Positions 2,574 through 57,821 of a stretch of 64,000 nt of DNA are shown in pieces (the stretch's first letter is position 1; every line of letters begins with the position of its first letter). This DNA is from Thelephora terrestris (lineage: Eukaryota > Basidiomycota > Agaricomycetes > Thelephorales > Thelephoraceae). The notes under the pieces are model-generated. The model was not told where the DNA came from. It searched no databases and was given only the letters and a program-made list of their open reading frames with translations. The stretch is from NCBI GenBank assembly GCA_015956445.1, contig WIUZ02000005.1, forward strand, positions 124,001 to 188,000, read 5' to 3'. Both the position numbers and the translations under genes were made by a program.

Positions 2574-4791
2574 CTAATCAATATCTCTTCGGATCCTTTG
2601 TACTACTTCCAATGCCGACCTCACCAACTCCTCATTCAGCCAGTTCTGCTCCCGGATCTCGTTCGGGTCTACGTCCAACAGGTCGTCGTAATCTGGAAGC
2701 TCTGTGTCAGAGTTCGGTTCGCTATCAGGAACGAACTCGGCATACGGATCGTACTCCAGAGCAGGCCATTGACGGCGACTACCCCAAGGAGTAGATATGA
2801 ATCCAGGATGAGGGGTGTCCCTACGAACAACTCCCAAGTTCTGATAGAACTCGTCGCTCCCGATCTCGATAACCTCATCATCAACGGGAACCAACCTGTT
2901 CTCGTGACGAACCAACAAACGAGCGGGTGGCGACTCAGCCCGGTTAGGGATAATCGGCGACCCAGCCCGATGCAGAACCTCCTCTCCCTCCTCTTCTTCG
3001 ACTTGGACCTCCGGCTCGTTACACCTCCTCTCACTGGGGGCAAGGGGTCAAATACCTGGTGGGTACATGCTGAATACATTGTGATCACAGTCAAAAAGTG
3101 ATCGCAATGTGCCCAGTGGGGAAATTTTGAATACATTCAAAATGTACCTGGCCATGTGAACCCAATGTGTCCAGTGGGCACATTTTGATTGTGATCACAA
3201 TGTACCCATCAATGTGATCTCAATGTGCTCACTGGGGACATTTTGATTGTGATCACAATGTACACATCAATGTGATCTCAATGTGCCAGCTGTGCACATT
3301 TTAATTTCTTTCACAATGTTCCCATCAATGTGTTCCCAATGTACCCAGCTCATTACATAATAGTTTCTTTCACAATGTTGTCCACAATGTGTCCAGCATG
3401 TGGCTGAGCCACTCATTCAAAATTCTTTCACAAAGTATCCAGTGATGTGTCTAGAATGTGTACAGCCATACACATAGTGATTTCTTTGAAAGTTCATGAT
3501 GAAATTGAACAATATTGTGATTACATTGTGATTACTTCAAAAAGAACCCCCTGGGAACATTATGGACACATCACTGGATAATCTTTGAAAGAATTTTGAA
3601 TGAGTGGCTCAGCCACATGCTGGACACATTGTGGACAATATTGTGAAAGAAACTATTATGTAATGAGCTGGGTACATTGGGAACACATTGATGGGAACAT
3701 TGTGAAAGAAATTAAAATGTGCACAGCTGGCACATTGAGATCACATTGATGTGTACATTGTGATCACAATCAAAATGTCCCCAGTGAGCACATTGAGATC
3801 ACATTGATGGGTACATTGTGATCGCAATCAAAATGTGCCCACTGGACACATTGGGTTCACATGGCCAGGTACATTTTGAATGTATTCAAAATTTCCCCAC
3901 TGGGCACATTGCGATCACTTTTTGACTGTGATCACAATGTATTCAGCATGTACCCACCGGGTATTTGACCCCTTGCCCCCAGTGTCTGGAGATCCCGGAC
4001 TTCTCCGGTCAACTCGGAGACACGACGAGTAAGGCGAGCCTAAAAGTAATAGGGTTAGAAGAAATCAATTATCTTCAACCCCTACCCCTTACCTTATCGT
4101 CCTCCAACTCTCCGGTTTTAGTAACAAGGGCCCGAACCAAGTCCTTAAGAGTGGTCACCTCTCCCTAAAGAAAATGTTGGGTTAGAAAAGTCAATTATCT
4201 CCCGACCCCACATTTACCTTTAGTAAATCGATATCGGCCCCCTGTCGGACAACGCTATCCTCTTGTCCATGAATAACTCCCTGCATATCCTCCTTCCAAT
4301 TCTCCAAGGCTTCTATCTCTTCTCGACGACCATCAACTCGCTCATTGACATGAGCAATCTCATCCATCAACATGGACCCAACGTTACCCGTATGGATAAC
4401 GCTGGCCTCCAACACAGAGTTGAAGGTCTCATTGGTCTCGGTGACGAACTCGACACCCCTGTTAAGGAGTTTGGTCGCATAGGGGTTCGTCTCGATACGC
4501 GCCAACTTGCGCCGAGACACCCTACGAGAAGCTTGGATGAAGTCCCTAAAACCTAAAACGAAATGTCAGAAGACACGCCAAATATGTCAACCGACATCCC
4601 GAACCTAAGTCGGTAAAACCCTCATTAGGGTCGGCGGTGGCGGTCCGGTCCATGACATTTCCCAAAGTGGGATAAGGGCGGGAAGCGTCCCGACGAGCAT
4701 GAGAGAAGCGGTCGATATTGAAGTTGTTCTCCTGAACAGGAGAGTAGGAGGAAGAGCGACGAGTGGGAACACGAGTAGAAGCACGAGGCAT
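2574..4791 (-). CDS. Spliced coiled-coil protein of a mobile element, interrupted by palindrome copy A
   Basis: Unknown protein, 367 aa once introns and palindrome A are removed. Exons (minus): 4791-4605, 4552-4218, 4164-4093, 4039-3985, then after the palindrome 3028-2574. Introns 2 and 3 have clear GTAAAT/GTAAGG donors and CTTTAG/TTTTAG acceptors; intron 1 uses the donor GTTCGG. Residues about 60-200 are helical and charged (EEIEALENWKEDMQGVI; TTLKDLVRALVTKTGELEDD), suggesting a coiled coil. The C-terminal half is acidic. Removing the palindrome plus one TCT copy restores the frame exactly (510 nt, no stop), so the insertion is recent. The probable TATA box (7166-7176) is separated from the start by the 2.3-kb unit at 4832-7140. 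No catalytic motif was seen. It may belong to the left-edge LTR element or an older relative. Confidence 0.6.
3032..3984. mobile_element. Palindromic CACTG element, copy A (TSD TCT)
   Basis: 953 bp running from CACTGGGGGCAAGGGG to CCCCTTGCCCCCAGTG. It is flanked by the 3-bp duplication TCT (3029-3031 and 3985-3987). The two halves, each over 400 bp, are near-perfect inverted repeats around a loop of about 110 bp near 3455-3570. The arms are built of repeated AT-rich modules containing CACATTG, CACAATG and TGATC. No coding capacity. CACTR ends and a 3-bp TSD point to a non-autonomous CACTA/CMC-type DNA transposon (inference). It lies in the last exon of the coiled-coil gene. Confidence 0.85.
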
Positions 4792-4936
4792 GTTGGCTGT
4801 GTGTGTAACAAAGGTGGGTTTGTTGAGAGACTGTCACGAACGCGTGACATAGTAGCCAAAATCGCACAGGTAATCCAAGACATTGGTCTTATTCGCAGTA
4901 ATAATAGTACACGAGTGGTTAAAAAGAACTACAAAG

Positions 4937-5840
4937 TCAGACAAGAACAAATGGGTCGACATCGCATGAACAGTTCTGGGGAAGAGGGCAACGGTGAGCG
5001 AAGTGGTGAGGGTTATAAACGCTCTCAGGACAATAGGACCACTCTCGCGTCACCGGATCCTGCCAACATTCCCTACACCCCAACACATCATGAGAGAGAC
5101 TCTCATACATCTCTCGTCGCACGTCCAGCAAGGCCCCGCTCACTAAGGAGAACCCATAACGGTCCTGGAGACCCGCCACTTCCACCTTCAACTTCATCTT
5201 CACCTGCCGTGACTTGTCGGAGGGACGACAGCGTTGACCAGAACGAGTCATCGGACTCTTGCGGGTCTTCTTCTTCAGGGACCTCTCCACCATCTGGCGA
5301 ACTGGGGCAGGACTCCAAGGAGGGGATGGAGGGAGAGGAACGCCCTGATCCTGGTGGTGGCGAAGGGACGACTGGGGACTTGCAAGGGGGGTCGGCGCAA
5401 TAAGCCCCGTGGCATTTGTGTCCGAAATATCGGAAGAGAGATGCCTGAAAAGGTCCCCAATGTTCCAAAGCAAAGTGAGAGAAGTCATCATTCAAACTGT
5501 TCATGATGACGTACATGAGGTCCACGCGCTTCTCCAACTTCGCGATCCTATCCTCCCTCTCCCTCTCCATGACGTCCAATAAGCGAGAGGCCGCAGGGTG
5601 TTGAGCCTGCATCCGAGGCAGGGGAAGCCTGGGGTCTTCGTACCCAGCCTGTTCCCAGAACTCGGCAGGGGCGTTATGAGCGGTGAGGAAGTCGATGGCA
5701 ACTTGGTTGTCATGAGCGATGTTGGCGGCAGAGTCGTACAGGTGTTGCTCCACGTTGTAAGGAGCATCCGTCTCGAAGGACGGGGTGAAGGAGGTGGCGA
5801 CGGCGTTGAGCACGGCATTGTTGGCATTGAAAGAAGACAT
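4937..5840 (-). CDS. Unit protein 1 (Cys/His-rich, 280 aa), copy 1
   Basis: Unknown function; not matched to a family I know. Two exons, 5840-5204 and 5142-4937, with a 61-nt intron (donor GTGAAG, acceptor TTCTCCTTAG). The N-terminal about 130 residues are predicted mixed/helical (NIAHDNQVAIDFLTAHNAPA; EDRIAKLEKRVDLMYVIMN). A first Cys/His patch is GHKCHGAYC, followed by an acidic Ser/Pro-rich linker. The C-terminal exon is rich in Cys and His (GCRECW, YNPHHFAHRC, NCSCDVDPF) and looks metal-binding. The copy at 27849-28746 keeps intron position, intron length, stop position and every one of these Cys/His residues, while differing mostly by conservative changes. That pattern suggests both copies evolved under constraint. 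Confidence 0.7.
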
Positions 5841-6496
5841 AGTAGCGAGGAGTTGTTGAAAAGGTAGTACTGGTGTTTGGTGGGAGTGGAAAAGAGACGA
5901 TGAGGGGAAAAGATCATTAATCCCCCTGACTTAAATACATCCTGACTCAAAGGATACCGAAAAGGGAAAAACAAAAACTCATTATCCATTAAACGTCTCC
6001 ATTAGGGTAAACGAACCCTCAACCCCAATTGCGATCCCATCAAACCAGAGAAATCCCCATCGATTACGGGAAATCCCCATCCGCCTTCTACTGCTACCAT
6101 GAAACGAGAGAAATCCCCACCGATCATGGGAAATCCCCATCAATCTTCTATTACCCCCGTCGATCATGAGAAATCCCCATTGTGCTTCTAATAAACTCCT
6201 CACGACTGCTCCCCTATTTCATTTCGTCATTTGTCATTCTAAAAGTCCCACGTCTCTGACTCATTCCTCCTGCCCTAAACTACGCACAGACCATGTTGAC
6301 TCCTGTTTGACTCGTTGTAGAATAGTGACTCCTGTAGAGGATTGGGTATATAAGGAAGAGCGTTCGCTCCTTTCTTTCCCCATTCTCAATCTCTTCTGTA
6401 CTCCTCTACCCACAACCTGAATAAAAGTAAGCTGAGGAATTCTCCTCACGACTTACCTTCTCTAACTCATTTCAGCAGGAATCCTCCTGCCAGTGT
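5841..6496. promoter_or_regulatory. Divergent promoter region of the unit, copy 1
   Basis: 656 bp between the two divergent start codons. A TATA box (TATATAAG, 6347-6354) lies 143 bp before the plus-strand ATG. Between about 6050 and 6190 the motif GAAATCCCCATC is repeated several times in an imperfect tandem array (unit about 45-60 bp, spaced by CTTCTATT). The same array and TATA arrangement occur in copy 2, so they are part of the unit and may bind a regulator (inference). Confidence 0.55.
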
Positions 6497-7120
6497 ATGT
6501 TCAGTGCCCCTAACCCCTTTCCCTCTACCAGTCCAGTCCAGCGACCAGTCATCCCTGACGCTAGAAGATCTATCTGGGAGTATAAGCTCATCAGAAGTCT
6601 TCAAGTAAACCGAACCGCCGGTTTACTTACCCATTTTCCTTACTACCGACCCTTTGCAGCTCTCGACGCCGGAGTCACTACTCCTCCATTTCTACTAGGA
6701 GCTGATCATCAATTCCTTTGGAATTCTGATCTTACTGAGAGCGTCCTTGCGACCGTCTACTTCAGTATCAGTCCGGCCTTTTACTTTCCCTCTCCACGTG
6801 TTCACCTCACGACTAATATCCACACCCATTCTCCTGCTATTATCGTTCTTTGGTGGGAGATCCCAGCTGAATTACCTTATTCTGTCATAGAATATCTCGT
6901 CAACTTCGAACGTCTTAGTGATCAAGACTTCAAACCGTTTGTGCAGCAGCTCAATCAGTTCTGCCAAGACTACCACTCGCCCGTTCATCCTTATCAAACC
7001 AAGTCACCCCTCTCTCTTGATATTCCCCCTCCCCTCGTCTCCACACCCGGAACCCCCTTCAAAACCAGACCCGATACCCCTCACCCCGCCGCTAATCCTC
7101 TAGCGCCCCACAAACAGTAA
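6497..7120 (+). CDS. Unit protein 2 (207 aa), copy 1
   Basis: Single-exon frame starting at an ATG downstream of the TATA box and stopping 20 bp before the end of the unit. No family recognised. The middle (residues about 30-160) looks like a compact mixed fold (RRSIWEYKLIRSLQVNR, VLATVYFSISPAFYF, IIVLWWEIPAELPYSVIEYL). The tail is Pro/Thr-rich (TPGTPF..RPDTPHP). No signal peptide or transmembrane segment is evident. The second copy (29435-30052) is intact, clearly similar along its whole length and of nearly the same size, which argues that the product matters to the unit. Confidence 0.7.
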   Translation: MFSAPNPFPSTSPVQRPVIPDARRSIWEYKLIRSLQVNRTAGLLTHFPYYRPFAALDAGVTTPPFLLGADHQFLWNSDLTESVLATVYFSISPAFYFPSPRVHLTTNIHTHSPAIIVLWWEIPAELPYSVIEYLVNFERLSDQDFKPFVQQLNQFCQDYHSPVHPYQTKSPLSLDIPPPLVSTPGTPFKTRPDTPHPAANPLAPHKQ

Positions 7121-7165
7121 GCAGGCCCACAACCCTGACAGAGACCTAGTCATCCAACCCCCTTT

Positions 7166-7176
7166 GGTTATATACC
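7166..7176 (-). promoter_or_regulatory. Probable displaced TATA box of the coiled-coil gene
   Basis: Minus-strand GGTATATAACC. If unit copy 1 and one GAGAC are removed, it lies about 65 bp upstream of the ATG at 4791, a normal distance. The insertion now puts it 2.3 kb away. Confidence 0.4.
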
Positions 7177-7799
7177 AAATACCACGCCCCTTCCACGACT
7201 CAGGAGTTGAGTCATCATTTCTATTGTTTACTGCGCATGACCCACATGACATCATATGCCCCTATTTCTTAGTCATATGCTCCCCTTTTGCCATTGGCTG
7301 TTAGTCAGTCATACCCACATTCCTTCCGAACATTCGCAGGATATGTCATGCTTTGTAATTGCTCTGTAATGCTCTCAAATTGCTATTGGCCGCCACACTT
7401 TCGTTTATCAGCTGATAATTTGTAGCATTAGTCACCACGTAACGCACAGACCATGCAGTGCTGCGCACGGACCATGTTTGTCTGTGTTTGTATCTTTAGG
7501 GTAGTTACATGTCACTGTCATGTCACAAATCTAAGTAGTATATATACTCAGAGTAGTTTAGCCTGTACTCCTTAGATTTGTTATCATCAGACTCTCCGTG
7601 ACCTCTACTGCTGTGTGCTTAGAGCAAGAGTGCCTGAAGACCCTTGTCTCCTTCTTTCTCCTCTTCTCCAATCTAGTCTGTGAAGAGACTTCCGATATCC
7701 CTGGGTTTGCAACAGGGTTATAACTGTGTGTTTGATCCCTGCGAGTGATAGGTTTGGATAGCAAGAGTGCTATTGAACTGTAGAGGTCGCGTCGGCCTG

Positions 7800-8010: not shown

Positions 8011-8731
8011 TTATCTTATCTCTTATCTTATCTATTGTCCTTATCTTATCAAATGAATAAACAATTATCCATAAAATATTCTTGCTTGGGCTGTAAGTAC
8101 ACTATTAATTGTGCGAAAAATCGTAAATAAATCATGATTAATCCAGGGGTCCGACAACGGCCTTGGAAGAACTTCGTTCCGGAACGCCTAGAACGCGCGC
8201 GCACTAAAAATAGGTCTCATGACCTTGACGACCCCTTTACAAACCCCTTTACGACCCTGATGACTCATTTATGACATCATGATAACGACCAACCCTGGAC
8301 CCTGGAACACACACGTGGGCACGGGGTATCAACATTTGGACACTGTGCTTCTAATCGGATAGTAGCCCTATCTGATCTGGTTGTGCTTTGGAAGCAGAGT
8401 AGGCCTGAGCCGAGAACAGCAGCTGAAGAATATAATCCCTGGTGCCACTTAGGAAGAACGATATTCCCAGGTGCTATGCCTAATCAAGACTGGGTCTGAT
8501 CAAGCGATTACGGTTGCAACTCCCAGGTTACTGCCTGTCCGTTGGTATCATACCACCTACCGACAACAAGGGATGTGTAGAGTTCCTCGCTATCTCTGGC
8601 CAATTGCAGAAGCCACGAGACGGGCTCACCTGACCCTTGGGTGTGGTCTAGATCCAGGGACGAACTTTCATGACCCATGCCCCTATTTCTTTTAGGACTA
8701 GTGTTATCTTTTACCCCTATGTTTCATGCGG

Positions 8732-9851
8732 TGAACTAGCTGAACACTCCGGGTAGTCGGATACCCTAAAAAGAGTGTACAAGCAGTTGAGGTGGGTACC
8801 GGTTGAGTGTTGAGTTCTGTACGACCACCGGAACAGAAGATCTGTTCAGAGATGCCCGAAGATGTCTGGAGAATCGCCGGGGAAGACCGCAACGACTAGA
8901 GTAAAGCGCGAGTTTCGAGACAAAGCAGAGGGGGGATGGGAACCGAGGTTGCGGAGAGTTGCGATGGAGAATCACCGCGAAGTCGTAAAGTAGCTGAAGC
9001 AGGTTTTTGGTAGGAGCAAGAGAGAAGGCACAGAGAAGCCGAGAACTTGACTTGAGAACTGGAGAGCGAACCGGAGAACTGGAGAACTCGGACTGAAACT
9101 GAACTGGGGGATCTGAGTCAATGCATTCCAGGTTATCTAAGACACAGTATATAAAGGAAACCGAAGAATCTCCTAAATAAGCAGTGTCGAGATAGTCCAT
9201 GAGAGAGAAGGGGAACGGAAAAGCAAAACTAAGAGGAACTTGGTAAGAGGGGTAACTACTAGGGGGGGAAACGACGACGAAGGCTGAGTAACTACAGGGA
9301 CGATGACGAAGGGGTGACGACGGCATGAGAGGAAGCCGCGTCATACAGGAGAAAACGCAGGGGAACAGAAATCGAGAGCGGAAGATAGAAATGGAGGCAA
9401 ATGCCCGGAGAACGGAACGGTGCGGGGAATGGAACTGATCGATCGACCGGGAAGTTCCGATCAATAAGGAATCGCGGGGACGAGGGCGCAGAACGGTGGG
9501 ATAACCGGAGATCAATGGTGGGAGGGATCGATAACGATAGATAACGATGGCGAAGGGCTAGAACGAGAGTCGAAACGAGGATGAAAGGCGAGGGGGACGA
9601 GGCGTCGGGGATATCAGAGTTCCGGAGGGTCGGATAGCGTGTGGCGGATGGCAGAACGCGAGGATTCAAAACAGGGTTCCCGAGGGGGGGTGTGAAGCGG
9701 GGAAGAACGTCCGAGAAACAATAGAGGCGGTCCGGTGATCAGGGTGAAGGCTGCCTCGAGGCAGTCGCGAGGCCAAGAAGAGTCCGGAACTCAATGGAGT
9801 CGAACGACCAATAGGAAGAAATCGGAGATTGGGAGTTTCGATGTCGCGACA
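8732..9851 (-). repeat. 3' LTR of the Ty3/gypsy element
   Basis: 1120 bp, TGAACTAGCTGAAC to GTCGCGACA on the plus strand, nearly identical to 21616-22735. GTATATAAAGG at about 9148 is a TATA-like site. Open frames inside are low-complexity and identical in both LTRs, so they are not evidence of coding. Confidence 0.93.
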
Positions 9852-9917
9852 TCTCCTCGGGACTTTAAAAATCAACCGTCCTCGGTTGCCAATCCGATAA
9901 CCTTTCCTTCGTTCTCT

Positions 9918-12900
9918 ATGACCTGGTGCCCATCTGACGCCAAGGGGAATCCCCTTCCTCCGTTCGGTCCTCTTGACGCGATTGATCGTAAGGGAGGATT
10001 GTTCCCATCTATCGAGAACGACTCTCCGTGGACTTTTGAAGAGGTGAAGGTTGCATATCCGTCGACTAAGGGGATCTGGGAATCTGTTCGCGAGGTGTGG
10101 AGGTTGAGTACGTTTGAGGAACTAGGTACCGGGGACAGAACGTGGACCGTTCTCGTAAAGGCTTGGATAGTGAGTTCCTCCTAGAGATACCTTCGCGCGA
10201 GAGCTTCCTATTAATGATGAAACCCAGGTGAGGCACTATGAAGTGTGCCGGGAAGCGGGGGTGCAGCCGTACGGCCCAGTTGTCGAGTACCTGCGACACG
10301 TGGTTCAACGGAACCTTATCAGCGGGGAGGGGCTTCCATCGACGGAAGTGAAGGCGCTGAAGACTCCAAAGACGGGGAGACCTTCGCCTAGAGCGAAGCT
10401 TCCGTATGTTCTCGTACCTCCTTCTCCAGTGCCGCGCATCCCGAAGAGGAAAGAGGTAACTCCAGACTCGCCGACCACCACTACTCGGGACGAGGAAACG
10501 GAAGCCATGGACGAGGAATGGAAGGAGACTCAGGGGAGCCCTCCAACGCCGAAGTTGCGCAGTCTCAGGGGAAAAGGGCAGAAGAAGGTAAAGAGAGAAA
10601 CGAAAAAGGAGACCCCGGCGAAGCAGGAGAAGGAGAAGACGGTGATTGCGAAGGATATGAGCGATATGAAAGTTCTTGAGGACTCCAGGCTGTCACCGGG
10701 GACGAAGAAGCTTTTCCCGACGGTGAGTCTCGATTTGCGAGGACCGCGAGGGGTCAGGAACTGATCGGAGAATGGGATAGGCCTGCCGAGAGTGCCAGTC
10801 GAAGAAGAAGAAGTGCGTTCCGCTCTGGAGGAAGTACTATCTTGCCTACGTCACCGTCTGGTGCGAATACTGCATGAAGAACAAGTGCCGGTGCTCGTTT
10901 ACAGACGAGTTCACCATGCTTCATCCGCCGTCGATCATGGAGAGCCTAGCACTGGGGGCAAGGGCTCACTTACCCAGCAGTTACATTGTGATTACATTGT
11001 GATTTTTTAGACAATGTATCCAGCCTGTGGCCAGGAGGTACATGCTGAGTTCTTTTAGAAAGTACCCATCAATGTGACCACAATGTGGCCAGTGGGTCCA
11101 TCTTGATCACTTTTACAAAGTGCCCATCAATTCGATCACAATGTGCCCTGTGGGTCCATGCAGGATACATTGTAAAATTATCCATCAAAGTGGCCACTGG
11201 GCACTTTGTGAAAGAAACCCATGGGTTCTTTCACAATTTTGTTCACAATGTATCCTACTGAGTGCCTGAGCCACTCATTGAGAGTTCTTTCAAGAAGTAC
11301 CCAACAATGCAACCACAATGTCCCCAGGGGGTTCTCCCCAATGTTTTCACAATGAACTCTCAATGTGGTTGGATTTCACAACAAACTCCCAAAGAAACCA
11401 TTGAGTATCTGGTTGAATACTTTGTAGACACATTGCTGGATATTTTCTGAAAGAACTCTCAATGAGTGGCTCAGGTGTATGCTGGACACTTCGTGAAAAA
11501 AATTGTGAAAGAACTCAGGGGTTTCTTTCACAAAGTGCCCAGTGGCCACTTTGATGGATACTTTTACAATGTATCCTGCATGGACCCACAGGGCACATTG
11601 TGATCGAATTGATGGGCACTTTGTAAAAGTGATCAAGATGGACCCACTGGCCACATTGTGGTTGCATTGATGGGTACTTTGTAAAAGCACTCAGCATGTA
11701 CCTCCTGGCCACAGGCTGGACACATTGTCTAAAAAATCACAATGTAATCACAATGTATCTGCTGGGTAAGTGACCCCTTGCCCCCAGTGTAGGGGGGATC
11801 GGGAGGAGGAAGAAGGCCGTTGAGGCGAAGAGGAAGGCTGCCGCGACTCCGATAAAGAAGGCCTTCTCCGAGGGGAGCAACGTAGAGGTGCAGGAGACCG
11901 AACCGGGTGCCGGTCGGGGGGGGGCTCGAGTCCCTTCAAATGTTCGATGACATAGTCGACAATCTGGATCTCCCGAGGATGACGATCAGGGAATGGTACG
12001 CGGACTTCCTAGGTGCTCGCCTCGCCGAGGATTCCCGGAGGATGCGACTTGATTTGCGAAAGAGTGCCTGGGAGGACATTGATCGGAAGTTCCAGGCTCG
12101 CTTGCTGGGAGCCAGTGCCATGTCCGTGGATAGTTCACCAGTTGCGGGGCCGTCGCAGCCTCGAGTTGCCAGTCCTCAGGCGGAAGAGACCATGGCCGAA
12201 GAACTGGAGAGGGTCGTCGAAGATCCGGGTACTCCAGCGCGATCCGAAGTTCCTTCCACTGGGGGCAAGGGGTCAAATACCCAGTGGGTACATGCTGAAT
12301 ACATTGTGATCACAGTCAAAAAGTGATCACAATGTGCCCAGTGGGGAAAATTTGAATACATTCAAAATGTACCTGGCCATGTGAACCCAATGTGCCCAGT
12401 GGGCACATTTTGATTGCGATCACAATGTACCCATCAATGTGATCTCAATGTGCCCACTGGGGACATTTTGATTGCGATCACAATGTACACATCAATGTGA
12501 TCTCAATGTGCCTGCTGTGCACATTTTAATTTCTTTCACAATGTCCCCATCAATGTGTTCCCAATGTACCCAGCTCATTACATAAAAGTTTCTTTCACAA
12601 TGTTGTCCACAATGTGTCCAGCATGTGGCTGAGCCACTCATTCAAAATTCTTTCACAAAGTATCCAGTGATGTGTCTAGAATGTGTACAGCCATACACAT
12701 AGTGATTTCTTTGAAAGTTCATGATGAAATTGAACAATATTGTGATTACATTGTGATTACTTCAAAAAGAACCCCCTGGGGACATTATGGACACATCACT
12801 GAATAATCTTTGAAAGAATTTTGAATGAGTGGCTCAGCCACATGCTGGACACATTGTGGACAACATTGTGAAAGAAACTTTTATGTAATGAGCTGGGTAC

Positions 12901-13304
12901 ATTGGGAACACATTGATGGGGACATTGTGAAAGAAATTAAAATGTGCACAGCAGGCACATTGAGATCACATTGATGTGTACATTGTGATCGCAATCAAAA
13001 TGTCCCCAGTGGGCACATTGAGATCACATTGATGGGTACATTGTGATCGCAATCAAAATGTGCCCACTGGGCACATGGCCAGGTACATTTTGAATGTATT
13101 CAAATTTTCCCCACTGGGCACATTGTGATCACTTTTTGACTGTGATCACAATGTATTCAGCATGTACCCACTGGGTATTTGACCCCTTGCCCCCAGTGTT
13201 CATCCTCTGAGTCCGAAGACGAGTTGGCGATGTCGAAGAAGGAGGGGAAGAGGAGGGCGGTTTCGAGGGAGGAGAAGCAGCCGGAGGAGGCCGAGGGGGA
13301 ATGA
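9918..13304 (+). CDS. Antisense Zn2Cys6 zinc-cluster gene inside the retrotransposon, split by palindromes B and C
   Basis: Gene on the strand opposite to gag-pol, between integrase and 3' LTR. Exons 9918-10169 and 10228-10722, then 10781-13304 interrupted by palindromes B and C. Both 58-nt introns are canonical (GTGAGT..CAG; GTGAGT..TAG). Residues 251-287 read C-x2-C-x6-C-x15-C-x2-C-x6-C (CRECQSKKKKC, CEYCMKNKCRC), the fungal Zn2Cys6 DNA-binding pattern. A Lys-rich stretch (KKVKRETKKETPAKQEKEK) precedes it and an acidic tail (SSSESEDEL) ends it. With both palindromes and one TSD each removed, the last part is 736 nt. One base must be lost, most simply from the 9-G run at 11915-11923, for a continuous frame of about 493 aa. 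So this copy is frameshifted, or the base is a sequencing error. Role unknown; perhaps transcriptional control. Confidence 0.72.
10950..11789. mobile_element. Palindromic CACTG element, copy B (TSD TAG)
   Basis: 840 bp, CACTGGGGGCAAGGGCTC to ..CCCTTGCCCCCAGTG, flanked by TAG (10947-10949, 11790-11792). It is the most diverged copy: the subterminal bases and internal modules differ, but the build is the same, with long inverted arms and no coding capacity. It lies in exon 3 of the antisense zinc-cluster gene. Confidence 0.85.
12257..13198. mobile_element. Palindromic CACTG element, copy C (TSD TTC)
   Basis: 942 bp with the same ends and arms as copies A and D, flanked by TTC (12254-12256, 13199-13201). 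Removing it and one TTC continues the zinc-cluster protein through VPSSSESEDEL to a stop at 13304. Confidence 0.86.
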
Positions 13305-13884
13305 AGGACTATCTGGCTGGGGACCCTTGGTAACGCTTCCTTTCTCTTTCCATATTTGCTAGTTTTGCCGTGTCCACACTTTGTCACCGCCGTGCGTTTT
13401 GAATGTGACAACGTTTTCTTGGTTCTCGCGAAGGGAAGGAATGAAGAATGAAGATGAAAAGTATCTAAGAAAAGAGTCCGTGGTGAAAACTTGTGGAAAC
13501 AAAGAGGGACGCTCCTCGGGACTTTAGAAACGAAGCGGGACGTTGCATAGAAGTGGGAAATTGAACATCGGAACTGGAAACCTGGTGGAGAAACTTGGGG
13601 AACTCGTTGCGGAACATAAACTGGTAGGAGGGATGGGAAAGATAGGATCTGGAATTCGCGGAAAAGGGTGAAAGAAAACGGTAGGAACTAAAAGGGACTT
13701 TTCGAAGAAAGAGAATCGAGGTAATGCAATGGTGATGGAGGGATAGGCTCGGGTTTTGTGGGGGGTGGCAGAAAGGAGCTTGGAAAATAAAAAGGAAGAT
13801 GCGTGGAGATTCGTAGAATGAAGGATGGGAAGGTCATGAAAAATCGTAACGGGTCGTGAAAGGGGTCATAAACTGGAAACAAAA
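13305..13884. other. Spacer between antisense gene and pol stop, with a second polypurine-like site
   Basis: 580 bp without a supported gene. It contains CTCCTCGGGACTTTA (13512-13526), identical to the 15 bp next to the 3' LTR (9853-9867), where the polypurine tract is expected. On the minus strand this reads TAAAGTCCCGAGGAG. The duplication brackets the antisense gene. Confidence 0.5.
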
Positions 13885-16800
13885 TCATAGCAGAGGAGGA
13901 GAAGAAGAAATATAACGCCTATCGTCAACAGGCAGAGAGGAAAAGAACCGAGTGTCCTCGGGATCTTCCCACGTCGAGTCCTCTTCCTCGGGAACGTCTG
14001 AAACGATGGGGATCTCTGTAGACGACCGGGGAAAGTAGGGAACCAAACGGAAACCAGCCACTCGCAGCTCGGACTGAGCGCCGTCAAGTTCTGCGACAAT
14101 GTAGGACTTCCCGATAGTCTTGCGAACAACTACCATGGGTCCCAGATAGCGGGGCTTGGTCTTCCGATTGAGGGACTCCTCAATGCGGGTATTGCGAACT
14201 AGAACAAGGGCTCCAGACTTGAAGTCAAAGTCGATGATCCGAGAGCCGTGCTGCTTCTCGAACTGCTCGATGTTCCGTTGTCGCGACTTTGTGACCCTTG
14301 ATCTCATTTCTTCTAGATCCTCAGGCCGTTTCGCCAATTGCCTCGCTCGGAGCGCTACTAGTTCCTCGGTGGAGATTCCGAAATCCTGCTTGGGTGCTAG
14401 GAACGTGGACTCGAGGATATCGAAGGGCAGAAGGGGGTGGACTCCGTGAGCGAGGAAGTAGGGGGAATATCCAGTAGACTTCCGGATAGTAACTCGTTCA
14501 GCCCAGAAAACTTGGGGAAGGACTTCCCGCCATTTTGACTCGTTGCTTCCGCAAGTCTTCATAATCGCCTCGCGAATGTCGAAGTGCTTAGACTCAACGA
14601 TGCCGTTTGCCTGAGAGTTGTAGCCAGAGATCCTGATGTGGTGGATACCGTACTGTTCGCCGAGAAGGTCCACCGCGGCGATGTAAGGAGCGGCGTTATC
14701 GGTAACGATCTCAGCAAGACCTCCCCAGCGACAGAGGATGTCCTGGAAGATAAAGGCGGCGATAGTCCGATGGGACTCAGCGGTAACAGCTCGTCCTTCC
14801 GGCCAAGAACTCATCGCACATCGGGCATGAAGAACATAGCGGTAACTTCCAACGCGAGGCATGAGGAAAGTGTCCATGTGAGCCTTTCGGAACAAGGAGG
14901 GAACCGTAGGAACGACCGGTGGTATGTGGAAGTACTTGGTCTGGCGTACTTGGCACTCGTGACAAGTCCTGACATACCACTTGACGTCCTTGGCTACCTC
15001 GGGCCACCAAAACCGGACAAGAAGGGACTGGGTAGTAGCGAAGATTCCCTTGTGTCCCATAACATCGTGAGCGTAGCGAATGAGCTCAAGACGATCGTCG
15101 GGTTCGGGGACGAGCTGGGGAATACCGGTCTTATTCTTCCGATAGAGACTTCCTTTGAACAAGAAGAACTCCGTGGCCTGTCGAATGAAGAGCCGGTACT
15201 GCTCATCAGAGAGGGCTGGAGGACGCTGGGGATCGGCGAGGAACTGCCAAATGAGGGAAGTCTTCTTGTCGCGAAGGATAGCCTTTGGAGATCTGGGAAT
15301 CTCCGGGGAAAGAGGGGGCGGAGGAGGAGAAACGGAAGAAGAGGAGAAAACAGAGGAGGAAGAAACCGAAGGAGAGCCGAAGGAAAATACATGCTTTTTC
15401 GCCACATGAGAACGAATGAGAGGAAGCAAAGGGTCAGTAGAAGAAAAAGGGGAATGGAGTCCAATGAAAAAGCCAGCGTTCTCATCAATCCAATCTTTGA
15501 GCTCTTCACCGTCATCGCGAGGAGGATCTACTGAAGCTCGGGGGCGTCGGGAGAGTCCGTCAGCTCCAGTGTGTTTCTCTGCGGGGACGTGAACGAGCTC
15601 GAAGTCAAAGAGGAGGATAGCAGCGATCCAGCGGTTGATAGCGTCATTGGGGTGGAGAGTAGGGCTATTAATCATGCCTTTGATGTACTTGGCATCCATC
15701 TCGACGACTAGCTTCCGAACACCAATCGTGAATAGCTGAGTGTGGCGAAGGGCTCGAAAGAGGCCATACAACTCGAGCTTCGCCTGAGAGTAGCGGGATT
15801 CACAATCGTTGAAGGTGATGGAGCCAAACCTGCTGGGATACCGCTTTCCGTTGTCACTGAGCTGAAAGAGGATATACCCTACTCCATTCGCGCACGAGTC
15901 GACTGCTAAGATAACAGGACGATCGCACTCATACTCGATGGGAAGTAGAGCCGGAGAACTGAGCACGGCTAGCTTCAGTCTCTCGAAAGCCTCTAACTGC
16001 TGGGGACCGATCTCAAAGGGGACGTCCTTTCGAGTCAGCTGAATCAGCAGCCGTGCGATGAGCGTATATCCTTTAATGAAGATTCGCAAGACTCCGCACG
16101 TTCCTAGGAACGCACGAACCTCGGAGACGCTCTTCGGGATAGGCCAGTCCTGAAGTGCCTGAACTCGGGAAGGATCCGCGATTCTCCCTTCGTAGGTACA
16201 CACATGTCCGATGATGTCAGCCTGCGGAACGCCAATGAATGCTTTCTTTCCGCTGAAGGTGGCGCCGTAGGACTGAACGCGATGCACTGGGGGCAAGGGG
16301 TCAAATACCCAGTGGGTACATGCTGAATACATTGTGATCACAGTCAAAAAGTGATCACAATGTGCCCAGTGGGGGAAATTTGAATACATTAAAAATGTAC
16401 CTGGCCATGTGAACCCAATGTGCCCAGTGGGCACATTTTGATTGCAATCATGATGTACCCATCAATTTGATCTCAATGTACCCACTGGGGACATTTTGAT
16501 TGCGATCACAATGTACACATCAATGTGATCTCAATGTGCCTGCTGTGCACATTTTAATTTCTTTCACAATGTTCCCATCAATGTCTTCACAATGTACCCA
16601 GCTTATTACATAATAGTTTCTTTCACAATGTTGTCCACAATGTGTCCAGCATGTGGTTGAGCCACTCATTCAAACTTCTTTCACAAAGTATCCAGTGATG
16701 TGTCTAGAATGTGTGCAGCCATATACATAGTGATTTCTTTGAAAGTTCATGGTGAAATTGAACAATATTGAGATTACATTATGATTACTTCAAAAAGAAC

Positions 16801-19037
16801 CCCCTGGGGACATTATGGACACATCGCTGGATACTTTGTGAAAGAAGTTTGAATGAGTGGCTCAGCCACATGCTGGACACTTTGTGGACAACATTGTGAA
16901 AGAAACTATTATGTAATAAGCTGGGTACATTGTGAAGACATTGATGGGAACATTGTGAAAGAAATTAAAATGTGCACAGCAGGCACATTGAGATCACATT
17001 GATGTGTACATTGTGATCGCAATCAAAATGTCCCCAGTGGGTACATTGAGATCAAATTGATGGGTACATCATGATTGCAATCAAAATGTGCCCACTGGGC
17101 ACATTGGGTTCACATGGCCAGGTACATTTTTAATGTATTCAAATTTTCCCCACTGGGCACATTGTGATCACTTGTTGACTGTGATCACAATGTATTCAGC
17201 ATGTACCCACTGGGTATTTGACCCCTTGCCCCCAGTGATGGATGATTCGATTAACGGCCTCAAGATGTTCCCAGACGAATCGACGGATACCGGAGTTTCC
17301 GTCAATCGTCTCGAAGGATCCGTCGGGGAACTCGTAGCGAGTCTTGGGGCCTTTAATCGGAACGTCGTCGGTGAAGGGCTGAGTCCAATGTGGAATCTCA
17401 GGGCGAAGAATGTGCGTGATGTCACCTTGGAGAACTGCGGGAGAGTTAGTCCATCCCATAGGAAGAACCGTAAGCCTGAAGGAGCCGAGAGGAGTGTTAA
17501 ACGTCGTCATGTCGCGGGACTTCTCGTGTAACTGTCGCTGGTCGAAAGACACATAGAGATCTAAAGTGGTGTAGATCGATCTTCCAGCAAAGTCCTCAGC
17601 GACTACCTCAGTATAGGGAGGCATCGCGGTGTTGCGAACGGTAACGGCGTTCAACGGCTCGAGCGAGTGGACCAGACGAAGAGACTTGCCATCCTTCTTG
17701 AAGACACAGAACCAGCGGCTGTTGTACAATGAAGAAGAGGGTTCGTACACTCCAGACCGCCACTTGTCTTCGATGATTTTTATGACTTCTCGAAGGATGC
17801 CGCGAGGGATCGGACCTTGCTTCAGTACCCAAGGGATGTGAGAGATATGCGGAATCTCGATGGGGGCAAAGTACTGGGGGTCAAAAGATCCTCGTTCGTC
17901 ATCTGTCCAGGCAAAGGCTGAATCGTGTTTGGACACGATCCACTCGGCAAGCTTGATTTCCTCGGGCCAAAGTAAGTCCTTTCCGATAGCCATATTGTCC
18001 CGTCTCTTGCTAGTGAACCTCCCGGTAGGGCGGAAGTTAGGAGGGTGGACCGGAAGATCTAGTAGTCCAGCGAGAGGGTCAGGATGCTCATGGCGAATAA
18101 TTTGGAAATTCTCCGGAAGAGTCGTCGCAACCGGCCTAGTTTTGTTCGCAACCTTCTTGTAGAGGAAAGCCACACCATCCCGTTCTAGCTCGATAAAGGG
18201 ATTCTCCGTGAACTGCTCGGAGATCCAGAGGCTAGCAAGCTGGATGGGAGTGTAGGGATTGGTGGGTGAAGGAGGAATAGCGTTGCGAAGGGTAGCGAAG
18301 GAGGAGTAGGCGGTCCGACGATCCAAGGAGGATAGGGACTGGAAGAAGGTGTGGAGAACGCTGGCAGGAGGCGAACGAAGTGAAGAATCGAAGGGAAACA
18401 GAACATGCGAAGATGAAGATACATGCTGAGAAAGAGAGAGAGAGGGAATCAAAGTCAGGACACGAGAAGAAGAAGATACAGGAAGGGAGGAATGGAGAGA
18501 GGAATCCGGAGAAACAAAGATCGGCACATGCGAAGGAGAAGATACAGGTTGAGGTGAGTGGAGAGAAAAGCAAGAGGATACATGCGAAGGTGAAAATACA
18601 TGCCGAGTTTCAGAGGAACTTGCAGAGGGAACGGGGGAATACGAGCTCAAAATAGATGCATTATCGGGAAGTACAGTAGGCTCGAGAAGGGACTCACTAT
18701 TGTCCCAGAAAATGGAGGCGGAAACAGGTAGCGGTAGTTGCGCCGGGGAAAGGACATTCGCAGACGAGGAGGGAGAAATCGAGGAAGAAGAAGAAGCAAC
18801 GGTCCACAACGAAGAAGAAGGAGCAATAGATTCAAAACGAGTCACAGGCGACGAAGGGGAAAGGGGAGAATCGAACTGGGGGAAAGACGACGAAAGTGAA
18901 GGGGGTGCAGATGAACCAGAAGTGGCTCTAAGAGAACTGGGTAATTGCGACGGAACTTCGACGAGGGCGAACGTTTCCCGGGGCTGGGAACATTGCCGAG
19001 AGGAGGACATCTCTCTCGAAGGACCGTCTACATACGA
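13885..19037 (-). CDS. pol: Pol polyprotein (RT-RNase H-integrase), -1 frame, split by palindrome D
   Basis: Copies the element and inserts it into the genome. The frame is entered by -1 slippage at 19037-19043 and ends at 13885; removing palindrome D and one ATG leaves 4197 nt (1398 aa) with no stop. Order: a Ser/Pro-rich leader; RT with FTDDVPIKG (F-x-D-D), TTLDLYVSFDQ and LPMGWTNSP; RNase H with AVDSCANGVG, AKLELYG and EMDAKYIKGM; an integrase zinc finger (HDVMGHKG..TCHEC); a D,D,E core (HMDTF, TDNAAPY, VESKH); and a C-terminal GPY/F-like module (KPRYLGPMVVV). Except for palindrome D between RT and RNase H the copy looks intact, so it was probably active until that insertion. Confidence 0.9.
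16285..17237. mobile_element. Palindromic CACTG element, copy D (TSD ATG)
   Basis: 953 bp, ends as in copies A and C, flanked by ATG (16282-16284, 17238-17240). It splits pol just after the RT palm (..AVNRIIH) and before the connection region (RVQSYGATFSGKK). Excision with one ATG restores the frame exactly. Confidence 0.87.
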
Positions 19038-21193: not shown

Positions 21194-21594
21194 TGGAGAA
21201 GAAATTGAAGGTAAAAGGGAAAAAGGGGGTTGCGAAGTATCGGAAAACGGCGAAGAAGGCCACGGCGGAGAAGAAGTAGAAGAGCGAGCAGGAGATCCAG
21301 AGAGTTGCGAAGAGAGTCGCGAAGAAGACCAGATATGATTCAAAGAGGGAGAGTAGTGGAGATAGCGTTGCGAAGCAGGCTCTGGGGAAGGAGTTAAAGA
21401 AGATAAAGAAGAAAGATAATCCTCCTCCAGGCTGTGTTCGCGGGTGGGTGGGTAGGATAAAACGACTCTCTCGATCCGCTGAAGAGTGCGGAAGGTCTGG
21501 TGGATCTCTGCAAAAGTAGCTCGAAGTTCGGCAAGATCTCGAGCTTCAGCTCGAGTGGTAGGAATGGTGGAAATTCGGAGAACACAACGTTACC

Positions 21595-21613
21595 GGTCCC
21601 GGCGTGGGTTCCA
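21595..21613 (-). other. Primer-binding site of the Ty3/gypsy element
   Basis: Two bases inside the 5' LTR, the minus strand reads TGGAACCCACGCCGGGACC, beginning with the TGG complementary to tRNA CCA. The priming tRNA was not identified. Confidence 0.65.
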
Positions 21614-21615
21614 GG

Positions 21616-22735: not shown

Positions 22736-22739
22736 GCGG

Positions 22740-23368
22740 ACTATTGTTATCTTTTATGCAATCCTTCACACGCTAATAAGGCCCTTTGTCCTTTATTCTC
22801 CCATGCGTCATCTTTGTTCGCTTCCCTTACTTAGCGTTCTCACACTCCTTATCTCCCTTTGTTCTGGATTGATAAGGGTATATTAGGGTATTGACGTCAT
22901 GGCCACTCCTTTAGTATAAGTAGCAACGGTGGCTGTATCGTAGTACCTTAGTTTTGTTACCTCAGGAAATCCTCTGCCCTTCTCAGCCCAGTTGCAGTTA
23001 AGGACAAGTCAGAGTTTCTTGTTTGATCCAAGACATCCCCATCTGCTCTCCCTCCCGCTCTGCGCGTCAACTGCGCCTTGTAACTATAAAACCTCAGCAT
23101 TCATATTAGAACACCTCGAGCGTCCAGTCGATCAACTGGTGGAGTCATCAATCCTGTTGTAGGGATAAACCCTTGTTGGATAAACCGAACGAAGTACGGT
23201 TTAGGTTGGGTTTCTCTTTAGGATTTCAACCTGACTTATAGTGACCTCGGACAACCTACCGGAAGAATAGAGATGTGATCGTTCTCTCACAAGCTAGTTG
23301 GACTAGTGAGTACTCTGCGGAGTCGGCTCAGTGCACTGGTAGTTGTTGGGGTAGAGTGGCCCTGACAT
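22740..23368. other. TE-derived leader/LTR-like sequence
   Basis: Continuation of the sequence interrupted at 8731. It has a TATA-like TAGTATAAG (about 22912) and a long non-coding stretch ending near 23368, where a transposase-like frame begins. No gene supported. Confidence 0.35.
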
Positions 23369-26698: not shown

Positions 26699-26711
26699 GC
26701 ATCTGTCACGA

Positions 26712-27747
26712 TGAACTAGCCACAAAGCCTTCGGAGTCCGAGAGGGCAGAGATGGCAGTTAGAAGGTCGGGTCCTCGGTTTAGAGGCGCGAGCCTCTAGG
26801 GAATCTGCGGGAAGCGAATGAACAGCAAGAGGGAAAGTCGGGATACGAACGGGAGAACGAGGCAGAGGACAACGGGAAAGCCAGAGAACGAAACTACCGA
26901 TAACAAACAAAGGGAAACGTCGGGATACGTCGGGACAACAGAGTCAGAAATCGGGACACCAGCGGGACACGAGAGACCAGAGGGACAACAAGAACGAGGG
27001 CGAGACGACAAGGGAACCGAAGGGAGGACTGTAGCAACGCTGCTAGGCCTCAGAAGAGAGAGAGAGAGAGAGAGAGAGAGGAAGAGAGAGAGAGGGAACG
27101 CTGCTGAATGATTCTGTGGTCTATCGAATACAGGGGCCTTTATATACAATGCTAAGGGCTCTGAGAACGAAGGGAACCAAAGGGAACGAACCAAAATGAT
27201 GTCAAGAGACCTTATGACGAGTCTATGACATAGGGAAGGCGGGGGATCGAAGGGAATGATGAAGGAAAGGAATGTGGTTGAGAAACGAACCAGAGGGAGG
27301 TCTGGAGTCGCAAGCAGGGCAATCGATCGAGACGTGATCGGGACGCAGAGAATGGAGATAGGGAGATGAGAACTAAAGATATAAAACGTACTGAAAAGTC
27401 GGGACACAATCGGGACTGATCGGGACGTGATCGGGAGGGAATGTGAAGGAAACAAAGTCCTAGGGATACTAAATGCTAAGAAACGCAGGTTGCAGGTCGC
27501 GGGTCGAGGGGGCGCAGGTCGCAGGTCGCAGGTCGCAGGTCGCAGGTCGAAAGGGGAAAACGTCGGGACGTTGTGATGTCGCGAAGGGGGATAAGGAGAG
27601 AGGGAAGTGTAGCGAAGCAAAGGGACAGCGAATCCTCATCGGGACAGTCGAGAATGCTGAGGGAAGTCATCTAGACCTCGCGCAGCGGTTGTCGATAGTC
27701 GAGGGAAGGTCGCGATTCCGGATAGTGTCCGAAATACGGTCACGACA
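26712..27747. repeat. Solo LTR related to the Ty3/gypsy LTR
   Basis: Starts TGAACTAGCC and ends GTCACGACA, like the ends of the 14-kb element's LTR (TGAACTAGCT..GTCGCGACA). It is flanked by ACGA/ACAA, a 4-bp duplication with one transition. It contains a GA dinucleotide run (about 27059-27090), a CAGGTCG heptad array (about 27485-27549) and a TATATA site near 27141. The long frame inside is low-complexity and is not called. Confidence 0.65.
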
Positions 27748-27848
27748 ACAAACGCATGACATAGTGTCTAAAATCACACAGATAATCCAAGACATTGGTC
27801 TTATTCGTAGTAATAAAAGTACAAAAGCGACTAACAAAAACTATAAAA

Positions 27849-28746
27849 CTAAACAAGAACAAAAGGGTCCACGTCACAAGTACAGTCCTGAGGAAACCGA
27901 CAACGATGAGCGAAGTGGTGAGGGTTATGTACACTCTGAGGACAGTACGAGTACACTCGAGTTACCGGATCTTGCCAACACTCACTACACCCCAACACAT
28001 CATGAAACAAGCTATCATGCATCTCCCGTTTCACATCCGTCAACGCCGCGCTCACTAATGCAAACCCATACTGGTCCTGGAGACCCGCTACTTCCACCTT
28101 CAACTTCATCCGAACCTGACGTGACTTGTCGGAGGGACGACAGCGTTGACCAGTACGAGTCATCGGATTCTTGCGACTTTTCTTCTTCTGGGTCCTCTCC
28201 ACCATCTGACGCATCGGAGCAGGACTCCAAGGAGGGGACTGAGGAAGAGGAACTCCCTGATCGCGAAGGTGGCAGAGGGACGACGGGGGAGTGAGGAGCT
28301 GCGTCGGTGCAGTACGCTCCGTGGCATCTATGGCCGAAATACCAGAGGAGAGATTCCTGGAAAGGTTTCCAATGTTCCAAAGCAGAGTGAGAGAAGTCCT
28401 CGTTGAGACTATTGACGACCACATACATGACATCCATCCTTTTCTCCAACTTCAAAATCCTGTCCTCCCTCTCCTGCTCCATTGCGTCTTGCAAGGGAGC
28501 GACCCCAGGAGCCCACCTTCGAGTCCTGTTAGGATCGTCGTATCCAGCTTGCTCCCAGAACTCGGCGGGAGCATTGTGGGCGGTCAAGAAGTCCACCGCC
28601 ACCTGGTTGTCATGGGCGATGTTGGCGGGGGTATCATACAAGTGTTGTTCCATGTCGAAGGGAGCATCTGTCTCAAAGGACGGAGAGAAGTCAAAAGGGG
28701 TGGCGGCAGCATTGAGCAAAGTGTTGTTGGCGGCGTAAGCAGACAT
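27849..28746 (-). CDS. Unit protein 1 (278 aa), copy 2
   Basis: Exons 28746-28116 and 28054-27849 with a 61-nt intron (donor GTTCGG, acceptor TTTGCATTAG) at the same position as in copy 1. The N-terminal helical part (NIAHDNQVAVDFLTAHNAPA) and the Cys/His motifs (GHRCHGAYC; GCSECW; HNPHHFAHRC; DCTCDVDPF) are kept. The stop is at the same site but is TAG rather than TGA. Function unknown; probable metal-binding C-terminus. No frameshift or stop seen. Confidence 0.7.
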
Positions 28747-29434
28747 TGTAGTAAAGGAGTAGCTTGAGAAGGGAGATGGTAGTAGTTTTGGTGGGAAAGG
28801 AAGAGAGACGATGAGAGGAAAGAACCAATAACTCTCCTAGATTATATATGACCAAGTCAATAGGAAACCGAAAGAGGAGAACAACAAACCACCACTCATT
28901 AAAAACCCAATTAGGGAAAACAAACCCTCAACCCCAAATCACGATCCCATCAAATCCTGAGAAATCCCCAGCGATCACGAGAAATCCCCATCACTCTTCT
29001 ATTGCTACCATGAAACGAGGAAAATCCCCATCAATCATGGGATATCCCCATCACTCTTCTATTGCTACCATGAAACAAGAGAAATCCCCACCGATCATGG
29101 GATATCCCCATCGAACTCCTAAATAACTGGTTCGCTATTGTTTCTCTATTTCGCACTCGATATCTATCGTTCTAAGTCCCACTCCTCTGACTCATTCATC
29201 CTACCCTAAAGTACGCACAGACCACGTTGACCCCTGTTTGGTTCGTCGTAGAATAATGACTCCTGTAGAGGACTGGGTATATAAGGAAGAGCGTTCGCTC
29301 CTTTCTTTTCCCCATTCTCAATCTCTTCTGTACTCCTCTAGTCACAAACCTCAATAAACAAAGTAAGCTGAGGAATTCTCCTCACGCCTTACTCCTTTCT
29401 AACTCATTCGAAGCAGGAATTCTCCTGCTAGTGT
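28747..29434. promoter_or_regulatory. Divergent promoter region of the unit, copy 2
   Basis: 688 bp between divergent starts. The GAAATCCCCATC array is longer here (about 28958-29115), with near-identical units of about 60 bp that include CTTCTATTGCTACCATGAAAC. TATATAAG at 29278-29285 precedes the plus-strand gene. Confidence 0.55.
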
Positions 29435-30052
29435 ATGTTTAGAGCCCCTAACCCATTCCCCTCCACCAGACCCATTCAACGTCCGGTTATACCAGACGCC
29501 AGGAGATCTATCTGGGAGTATAAACTCATCAGAAGTCTTCAAGTAAACCGTACCGCCGGTTTACTTACTCATTTCCCTTACTATCGACCCTTTGCAGCCC
29601 TCGACTCTGGAGTCACTACTCCCCCTTTCCTCTTAGGAGCCAACCACCAGTTCCTCTGGAACTCCGACTGTACTGGTAGCGTTCTAGCAACCATTTACTT
29701 CAGTATAAGTCCGGCCTTTTATTTCCCCAACCTGCGCATTCACCTCACCACTAACGTTCATACTCACTCCCCTGCTATCATTGTCTTGTGGTGGGAAATT
29801 CCAACTGAATTACCTTATTCGGTTATAGAATACCTCATAAGCTTCAAACACCTCAGCGATCAAGACTTCAATCCATTCATCCAGCAACTCGGTCAGTTTT
29901 GCCACGACTACCACTCGCCGGTCCACCCTTATCAAACCGAGTCACCACTCGCCCTCGATACTCCTCCTCCTCTCACCCCCACACCCGGAACTCCCTTCAA
30001 GGTTCGACCCGACACCCCTCATCCATCCGCTAATCCTCTAGCGCCCCTTTAA
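29435..30052 (+). CDS. Unit protein 2 (205 aa), copy 2
   Basis: Intact single-exon frame, clearly similar to 6497-7120 along its length (shared YKLIRSLQVNRTAGLLTHFP, SVLAT.YFSISPAFYFP, IIVLWWEIP.ELPYSVIEYL). It ends 27 bp before the end of the unit. Function unknown; no motif recognised. Differences from copy 1 are mostly conservative. Confidence 0.7.
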   Translation: MFRAPNPFPSTRPIQRPVIPDARRSIWEYKLIRSLQVNRTAGLLTHFPYYRPFAALDSGVTTPPFLLGANHQFLWNSDCTGSVLATIYFSISPAFYFPNLRIHLTTNVHTHSPAIIVLWWEIPTELPYSVIEYLISFKHLSDQDFNPFIQQLGQFCHDYHSPVHPYQTESPLALDTPPPLTPTPGTPFKVRPDTPHPSANPLAPL

Positions 30053-30084
30053 ACAGTAAGCAGGCCCACAACCCTGACAGCATC

Positions 30085-57665: not shown

Positions 57666-57821
57666 TAACGGAGATCGAGTCGGTAGCAGACATCAACGTC
57701 AATCGCAAAAACAACGCGTCTAACACTCTGGTCTGTTCTCACAGGATGGGGTCCGTTCGTAGCCCCGGGTCTCCCTCCTCTCCGCCTCCCACAACCTTCG
57801 TTTCCTCCCTCTCAGCCGGGG

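Follow-up and report, generated by a model that had tools for sequence, protein, structure and literature searches.

A mobile 2.3-kb unit with LTR-type ends and a divergent gene pair in the genome of Thelephora terrestris

Introduction

A unit with the shape of a solo LTR is usually regarded as a dead remnant. The window analysed here, a stretch of 64,000 nucleotides from the basidiomycete Thelephora terrestris (contig WIUZ02000005.1, positions 124,001 to 188,000), holds a unit of this shape, called U in this study, which carries two divergent genes (Table 1). This raises the question of whether U is the LTR of a large retroelement or a small element moved in trans by an integrase, both of which had been proposed in a preliminary description of the window made from its sequence. 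In this genome such units number in the hundreds and appear to be the mobile form itself; there are at least two families of them, U and a second one called X, with nearly the same ends, and the genes of U are under strong purifying selection.

Table 1. Features of unit U and its surroundings in the window
Feature	Position	Strand	Remarks
Left 5-bp target duplication GAGAC	4827..4831		
Mobile unit U, copy 1 (TGTCACG..CCCTGACA)	4832..7140	+	2309 bp
Minus gene, second frame, 184-aa ORF	4937..5491	-	Selected from about 4937 to 5335; Cys/His-rich end
Minus gene, first frame, 245-aa ORF	5103..5840	-	Coiled coil, acidic tail; selected from about 5330 to 5840
Divergent promoter region	5841..6496		Repeated GAAATCCCCAT motifs at 6037-6196; TATATAA at 6347-6353; AATAAA at 6420-6425
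GTAAG donor-like site and two leader hairpins	within 5841..6496		GTAAG at 6427-6431
Mosaic-breakpoint block, R-like	6300..6420		
Plus gene, orphan, 207 aa	6497..7120	+	Median dN/dS 0.07; stop codon lies 20 bp short of unit end
Right 5-bp target duplication GAGAC	7141..7145		
Further X-like piece, opposite side of inserted Gypsy element	8157..8731		
Right part of family X copy, ends GTGGCCCTGACA	22736..23367	+	
Mobile unit U, copy 2, split by solo LTR	26704..30079	+	GCATC at 26699-26703 and 30080-30084
Solo LTR of Gypsy-like element within copy 2	26712..27747	+	Duplication ACGA/ACAA

Boundaries and insertion of the unit

U inserts as a single 2.3-kb unit with short TGTCA..TGACA ends and a 5-bp target duplication. 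Copy 1 starts with TGTCACGAAC and finishes with CAACCCTGACA. When its ends were searched as 22-mers with up to three mismatches through the whole genome (40.6 Mb in 60 contigs), the right end gave 318 matches and the left end 282, and reversed control patterns of both gave none. A search of the genome with the whole unit gave 53 matches, many of them spanning positions 1 to 2309 of U exactly (40 of 396 candidates were scored). After merging, 139 left and 145 right ends were listed, that is, part of all the pattern matches. On the same strand and within 20 kb, a listed right end accompanies 105 of the listed left ends, and in 81 of these the spacing is 2.15-2.45 kb; the lists include full-length BLAST copies and so favour the 2.3-kb spacing.

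A perfect 5-bp duplication flanks 28 of 31 full copies. The three others are copy 2 of the window, in which a nested LTR masked the duplication from the script, one copy with an altered right end (L013) and one with no duplication (L008). Ten further copies all have a perfect duplication, giving 38 of the 41 with both ends read; these copies rank among the top matches to the copies in the window and form a non-random sample. Four insertions of U lie within the repeat X, and in each case joining the flanks and removing one duplication gives a sequence that matches an uninterrupted copy of X (identities of 88.5, 76, 90 and 100%, with 0, 6, 5 and 0 gaps). An insertion of U into U, at C6, has junction overlaps of 5 and 6 bp. 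The proposal that 4832-7140 is a mobile unit with LTR-type ends is thus borne out by its TGTCA..TGACA termini, the perfect GAGAC on both sides and the hundreds of end matches. Homology running past these termini would have pointed to a larger repeat, and the homology of U stops at both ends. Rfam gave no match over 4500-7500. At the left end, positions 4832-4849 form a short palindrome (TGTCACG AACG CGTGACA) that places TGTCA twice, inverted, within 18 bp.

Two apparent longer forms of U were rejected. Three of the 24 long left-right spacings, at 5.5-5.7 kb, might have represented a longer autonomous U, and mid-region samples of all three proved to be X sequence; one of them, followed further, is an X copy inserted in U between two GATGC. 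The second copy in the window, reported earlier with its own perfect duplication, does have GCATC on both sides, and its additional length is that of a solo LTR (TGAACTAG..CACGACA) that lies within an ordinary U of about 2.3 kb, 8 bp in from the left end. The flanks of this LTR, ACGA and ACAA, are a 4-bp duplication with one change, and its matches elsewhere in the genome form same-strand pairs about 8.2 kb apart. The family to which it belongs has TGAACTAG..CGACA ends and 4-bp duplications, and U was rejected as its LTR; mobilisation of U by this Gypsy family likewise disagrees with the ends and with the stagger length (4 bp vs 5 bp). Another Gypsy element, of about 14 kb, occupies 8732-22735 within an X copy, with LTRs of 1,122 bp that are 99.3% identical and a 4-bp duplication, GCGG; at its LTR ends it resembles the 8.2-kb family.

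Genes of the unit

Both genes of U are kept under purifying selection. The divergent pair reported at the outset is present as a plus-strand ORF of 207 aa and a minus-strand ORF of 245 aa. An intact plus ORF occurs in 25 of the 31 copies (dN/dS has a median of 0.07 over 300 pairs), and an intact 245-aa ORF in 19 of 31, five of the twelve misses only having no stop at the aligned place (median dN/dS 0.25 over 171 pairs). These counts qualify the earlier wording, intact small genes. The minus gene also extends past the 245-aa ORF. Its wobble phase switches near 5230-5330, and the second frame has a dN/dS of 0.070 at 4937-5101, with a stop in 3 of 31 copies, and of 0.139 at 5102-5227. Between 5228 and 5335 dN/dS is about 0.4 in each of the overlapping minus-strand frames (21 of 31 copies are free of indels here). 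As both frames look constrained in this interval, an intron or dual coding is possible, and the passage from the first frame of the gene to the second would involve either an intron or a frame change. A third gene, on the plus strand and entering from the left end of U in a frame open in 30 of 31 copies, was rejected for 4843-5102: dN/dS is 0.97 there among 28 copies (0.52 in the first 130 bp alone), and the periodicity at the left end belongs to the second frame of the minus gene.

Neither protein has a significant match in Pfam, PHROGs (best E 0.21) or PDB, and no reverse transcriptase, integrase or transposase domain or similarity was found in them with Pfam over the ORF sets or in profile and structure-database searches. 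Relatives at E <= 0.001 number 9 and 36 for the two proteins, the named ones all from T. terrestris, and a profile search adds one; a scan of viral contigs with the plus protein (one of eight scans) found no relative. AlphaFold2 models reached a mean pLDDT of 38.5 for the plus protein (8 sequences) and 52.6 for the minus protein (13 sequences), values too poor to judge the fold; the minus model predicts helices, one of them of 34 residues in the likely coiled coil. We infer that the genes serve the spread of the unit itself.

Promoter region and mosaic copies

The region between the two genes gives U an anatomy like the U3-R-U5 of an LTR, with a TATA box followed about 70 bp downstream by AATAAA. 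TATATAA is kept in 44 and AATAAA in 41 of 46 copies. The GTAAG donor is present in all 46 aligned copies; of the conserved intron described earlier it is this donor that stands, the intron itself being putative. The leader of the plus gene can form two hairpins at 6427-6456, the first of which pairs the donor-like GTAAG with CTTAC (z -2.9) and could hide the splice site.

The copies of U do not share a single history along their length. Nearest neighbours chosen from the left and from the right part of the unit agree in only 5 of 31 copies, and in a two-rate test corrected for site variability 20 of 465 pairs exceeded a likelihood ratio (LR) of 12, the simulated maximum being 6.9. The breakpoints of these 20 pairs are spread, the largest group falling at about 6250-6330 and consisting mostly of pairs with one copy, L024. 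For the right part, from which 13 of 59 copies were dropped for coverage and 46 kept, 96 of 1,035 pairs exceeded an LR of 10, and 52 of them broke at 6360-6420 (counts that carry no separate null). Among 16 pairs sharing no copy, nine have their breakpoint at 6300-6420. U copies are mosaics whose breakpoints cluster at the TATA/AATAAA block, a pattern suggestive of strand transfer in R during reverse transcription. The same block is the most conserved stretch of U, and for this reason ordinary homologous recombination could also favour it; promoters are recombination hot spots in fungi.

The two copies of the target duplication differ by at most about 1.6%, a 95% bound that is optimistic since it rests on the 38 perfect duplications. 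Perfect duplications imply young insertions, yet the median dS between plus genes of U copies is 0.86, and most of the divergence would therefore predate insertion, having arisen in active lineages under selection.

A second family with similar ends

Family X is about 3.30 kb long, runs from TGTCAGGAACATGG to GTGGCCCTGACA (TGTCAGG..CCTGACA) and has 402 left-end and 416 right-end matches in the genome; one copy lies at L104:88-3410. Of the X left ends in the lists, 67 have a listed right end no more than 15 kb away, and in 41 of these the spacing is 3.0-3.34 kb. Listed X pairs comprise 17 in the same and 20 in opposite orientation, and three of the 17 direct ones are 5.2-5.4 kb apart. U and X are often found within each other, and at C10 an X copy inserted in U is flanked by GATGC on either side. 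The left 1.9 kb of X has a wobble periodicity fitting a split minus-strand gene, and none is clear in the right part. Four X ORF pieces gave no Pfam match, the best hhalign probability between the terminal domain of the U minus gene and the X gene pieces was 3.65%, and no plus gene was recognisable in X. All four ends of U and X fit TGTCASG, which suggests one mobilising enzyme, and to judge by these sequences X is probably moved by the machinery that moves U. The flanks of L003, L008 and L025 contain distant relatives of the X gene pieces, at 34-48% identity, and there may be more families of this kind.

Search for a larger retroelement

U has the TG..CA ends and a duplication within the 4-6 bp expected of an LTR. 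A direct pair of copies around gag-pol, with a single outer duplication, was not found with the 145 of 318 right ends that were placed. Judged by these ends, the intervals between direct U right ends up to 12 kb apart contain none of the 78 Copia reverse transcriptase hits used (of 99) and none of the 90 hits to the integrase zinc domain. The listed right ends form 19 direct and 20 inverted pairs at 2.6-20 kb, and the direct pairs have no common spacing. No internal sequence is shared in register among 68 right flanks (58, and ten added mainly from direct pairs), nor among 47 left flanks except for two head-to-head left ends at L028. One pair of right flanks (L016 and L019) has a weak similarity over 95 nt that is out of register by 6 nt; one of the 68 starts with TGG, about chance; and no sequence shared among the 68 right or 47 left flanks supplies a PBS 3' of the right end or a PPT 5' of the left end. 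The LTR that interrupts copy 2 serves as a positive control, as it does form its 8.2-kb pairs in this genome, and the Gypsy element at 8732-22735 has both of its LTRs.

The reading of U as the LTR of a large retroelement is thus not supported by the tests run, in view of the want of gag-pol between direct copies, the even pair orientations and the 68 unshared flanks; a rare full-length master could make up as much as about 4% of the copies, given 68 negative flanks. What stands of the preliminary interpretation is the mobile unit with its LTR-type ends, 5-bp duplications and divergent genes. Many units with target duplications and no flanking gag-pol had been named as the pattern of a small trans-mobilised element, and this is the pattern observed.

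It could still be argued that U and X are true gene-carrying LTRs like that of MMTV, the full-length copies being rare, lost from the strain or missing from the assembly, and the observed copies solo LTRs left by LTR-LTR recombination. Such an origin would account for the TG..CA ends, the 5-bp duplications, the order of TATA and AATAAA and the breaks at the R-like block. It would also suit the stop codon of the plus gene, which lies so near the end of the unit that its transcript must end outside it, and the three direct X pairs at 5.2-5.4 kb. We nevertheless consider it unlikely, though by no means negligible: besides the flank, pol and orientation results above, young perfect duplications would sit on units that had all already become solo, and two masterless families would be needed in a genome where another family retains its LTR pairs.

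Target sites and the mobilising enzyme

The 38 insertion sites show a weak symmetric target preference. A T at the first or an A at the last position of the duplication is avoided (7 of 76, p = 0.0004) and A/T at +-10 is favoured (59 of 76, p = 8e-6), these positions having been chosen after looking. Symmetry of this kind is in keeping with DDE enzymes generally, integrases and transposases alike. Copia integrases cut with a 5-bp stagger, and of the 99 Copia reverse transcriptase hits in the genome more than 30 lie within open frames at least 1,400 aa long. On account of the stagger and these long frames Copia is the leading candidate for the mobiliser of U, and a candidate only.

The symmetric target, the single-unit structure, the precise ends, the selected genes and the missing PBS and PPT would also suit a self-sufficient DNA transposon, with a new transposase, acting on TGTCA ends with a 5-bp stagger, encoded by one of the orphan genes or by both. 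PMC2836005 describes Ginger2/TDD transposons with TGTNR ends, to which the TGTCA of U conforms, and 5-bp duplications for TDD-4 and TDD-5, as in U; it also gives Ginger elements a Gypsy-like integrase and terminal inverted repeats of about 40-270 bp. In U neither ORF set has a Pfam match to such an integrase, and no inverted repeat of 12 bp or more joins the ends, 5 bp being visible by eye. A transposon of this kind seems to us rather improbable, given that the U proteins have no similarity to transposases, that the inverted ends measure only 5-7 bp, and that X has nearly identical ends yet neither a detected homolog of the terminal domain of the U minus gene nor a recognised plus gene. Two host genes that had been amplified together with their flanks, and were selected in place for a host function, would explain the open plus frame in 25 of 31 copies and the low dN/dS; such an origin is very hard to reconcile with 318 dispersed right ends, some inside other repeats and each other, with their 5-bp duplications and with no single-copy ancestor seen.

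A proposed model for the spread of the unit

The reading that we prefer, and to which we give about an even chance, is that U stands alone as a mobile unit, carries its genes with it and is inserted by an integrase of retroviral type that is probably provided in trans. Joining would be performed by a DDE integrase of resident LTR retrotransposons and, less certainly, new units would pass through RNA. Given the U3-R-U5-like anatomy of U, a strand transfer within R would couple the U3 from one parental copy with the R-U5 from another and so place breakpoints at the TATA/AATAAA block. The minus protein, with its coiled coil, acidic tail, basic stretch and Cys/His-rich end, might be a nucleic-acid-binding or packaging factor, and the plus protein might be its partner; both roles are guesses.

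Several points weigh against this reading. The search found no mobilising enzyme, and LTR-type replication needs an outside PBS and PPT, which no shared flank carries. Purifying selection on genes that are simply moved in trans is unexpected unless they act in cis. The symmetric target, moreover, fits DNA transposases too.

U does not match any of the compared known families in full. With the solo LTRs of Copia and Gypsy elements it has in common the TG..CA ends, the 5-bp duplication (Copia), a TATA box followed by AATAAA and the form of a single unit; unlike them it carries a selected divergent gene pair, and it has no full-length partner among the flanks examined. The LTR of MMTV, with its sag gene, is the textbook case of a gene inside an LTR, and U resembles it as an LTR-type unit that codes for protein. 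MMTV, however, forms full proviruses and has one LTR gene, whereas U has a divergent pair and no provirus was found. TRIM, LARD and TR-GAG elements are moved in trans by retroelement proteins, and TR-GAG keeps a gene; these have two LTRs with PBS and PPT, whereas U is a single unit in which neither was found. In the accessible portions of open-licence papers no account was found of such an element from Thelephora or of fungal LTRs that carry a gene pair, and the organism-level passages of PMC7550596 make no mention of U.

It is a tentative and somewhat doubtful suggestion that U and X together represent a new class of eukaryotic element, a self-contained LTR-shaped module that would replicate as a single piece through RNA, with strand transfer in an R-like block, would use its own orphan genes and a borrowed integrase and would never take the form LTR-pol-LTR. 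If it is true that such units are themselves mobile, annotations of solo LTRs in fungi deserve re-examination, U would be a case of the bulk spread of genes on borrowed retroelement machinery, and both orphan proteins would be candidates for a novel role in integration or in packaging.

Elsewhere in the window, positions 54179-59598 hold ordinary host genes, namely a TTI1-like ORF on the minus strand and a GATase/anthranilate-synthase-type ORF on the plus strand.
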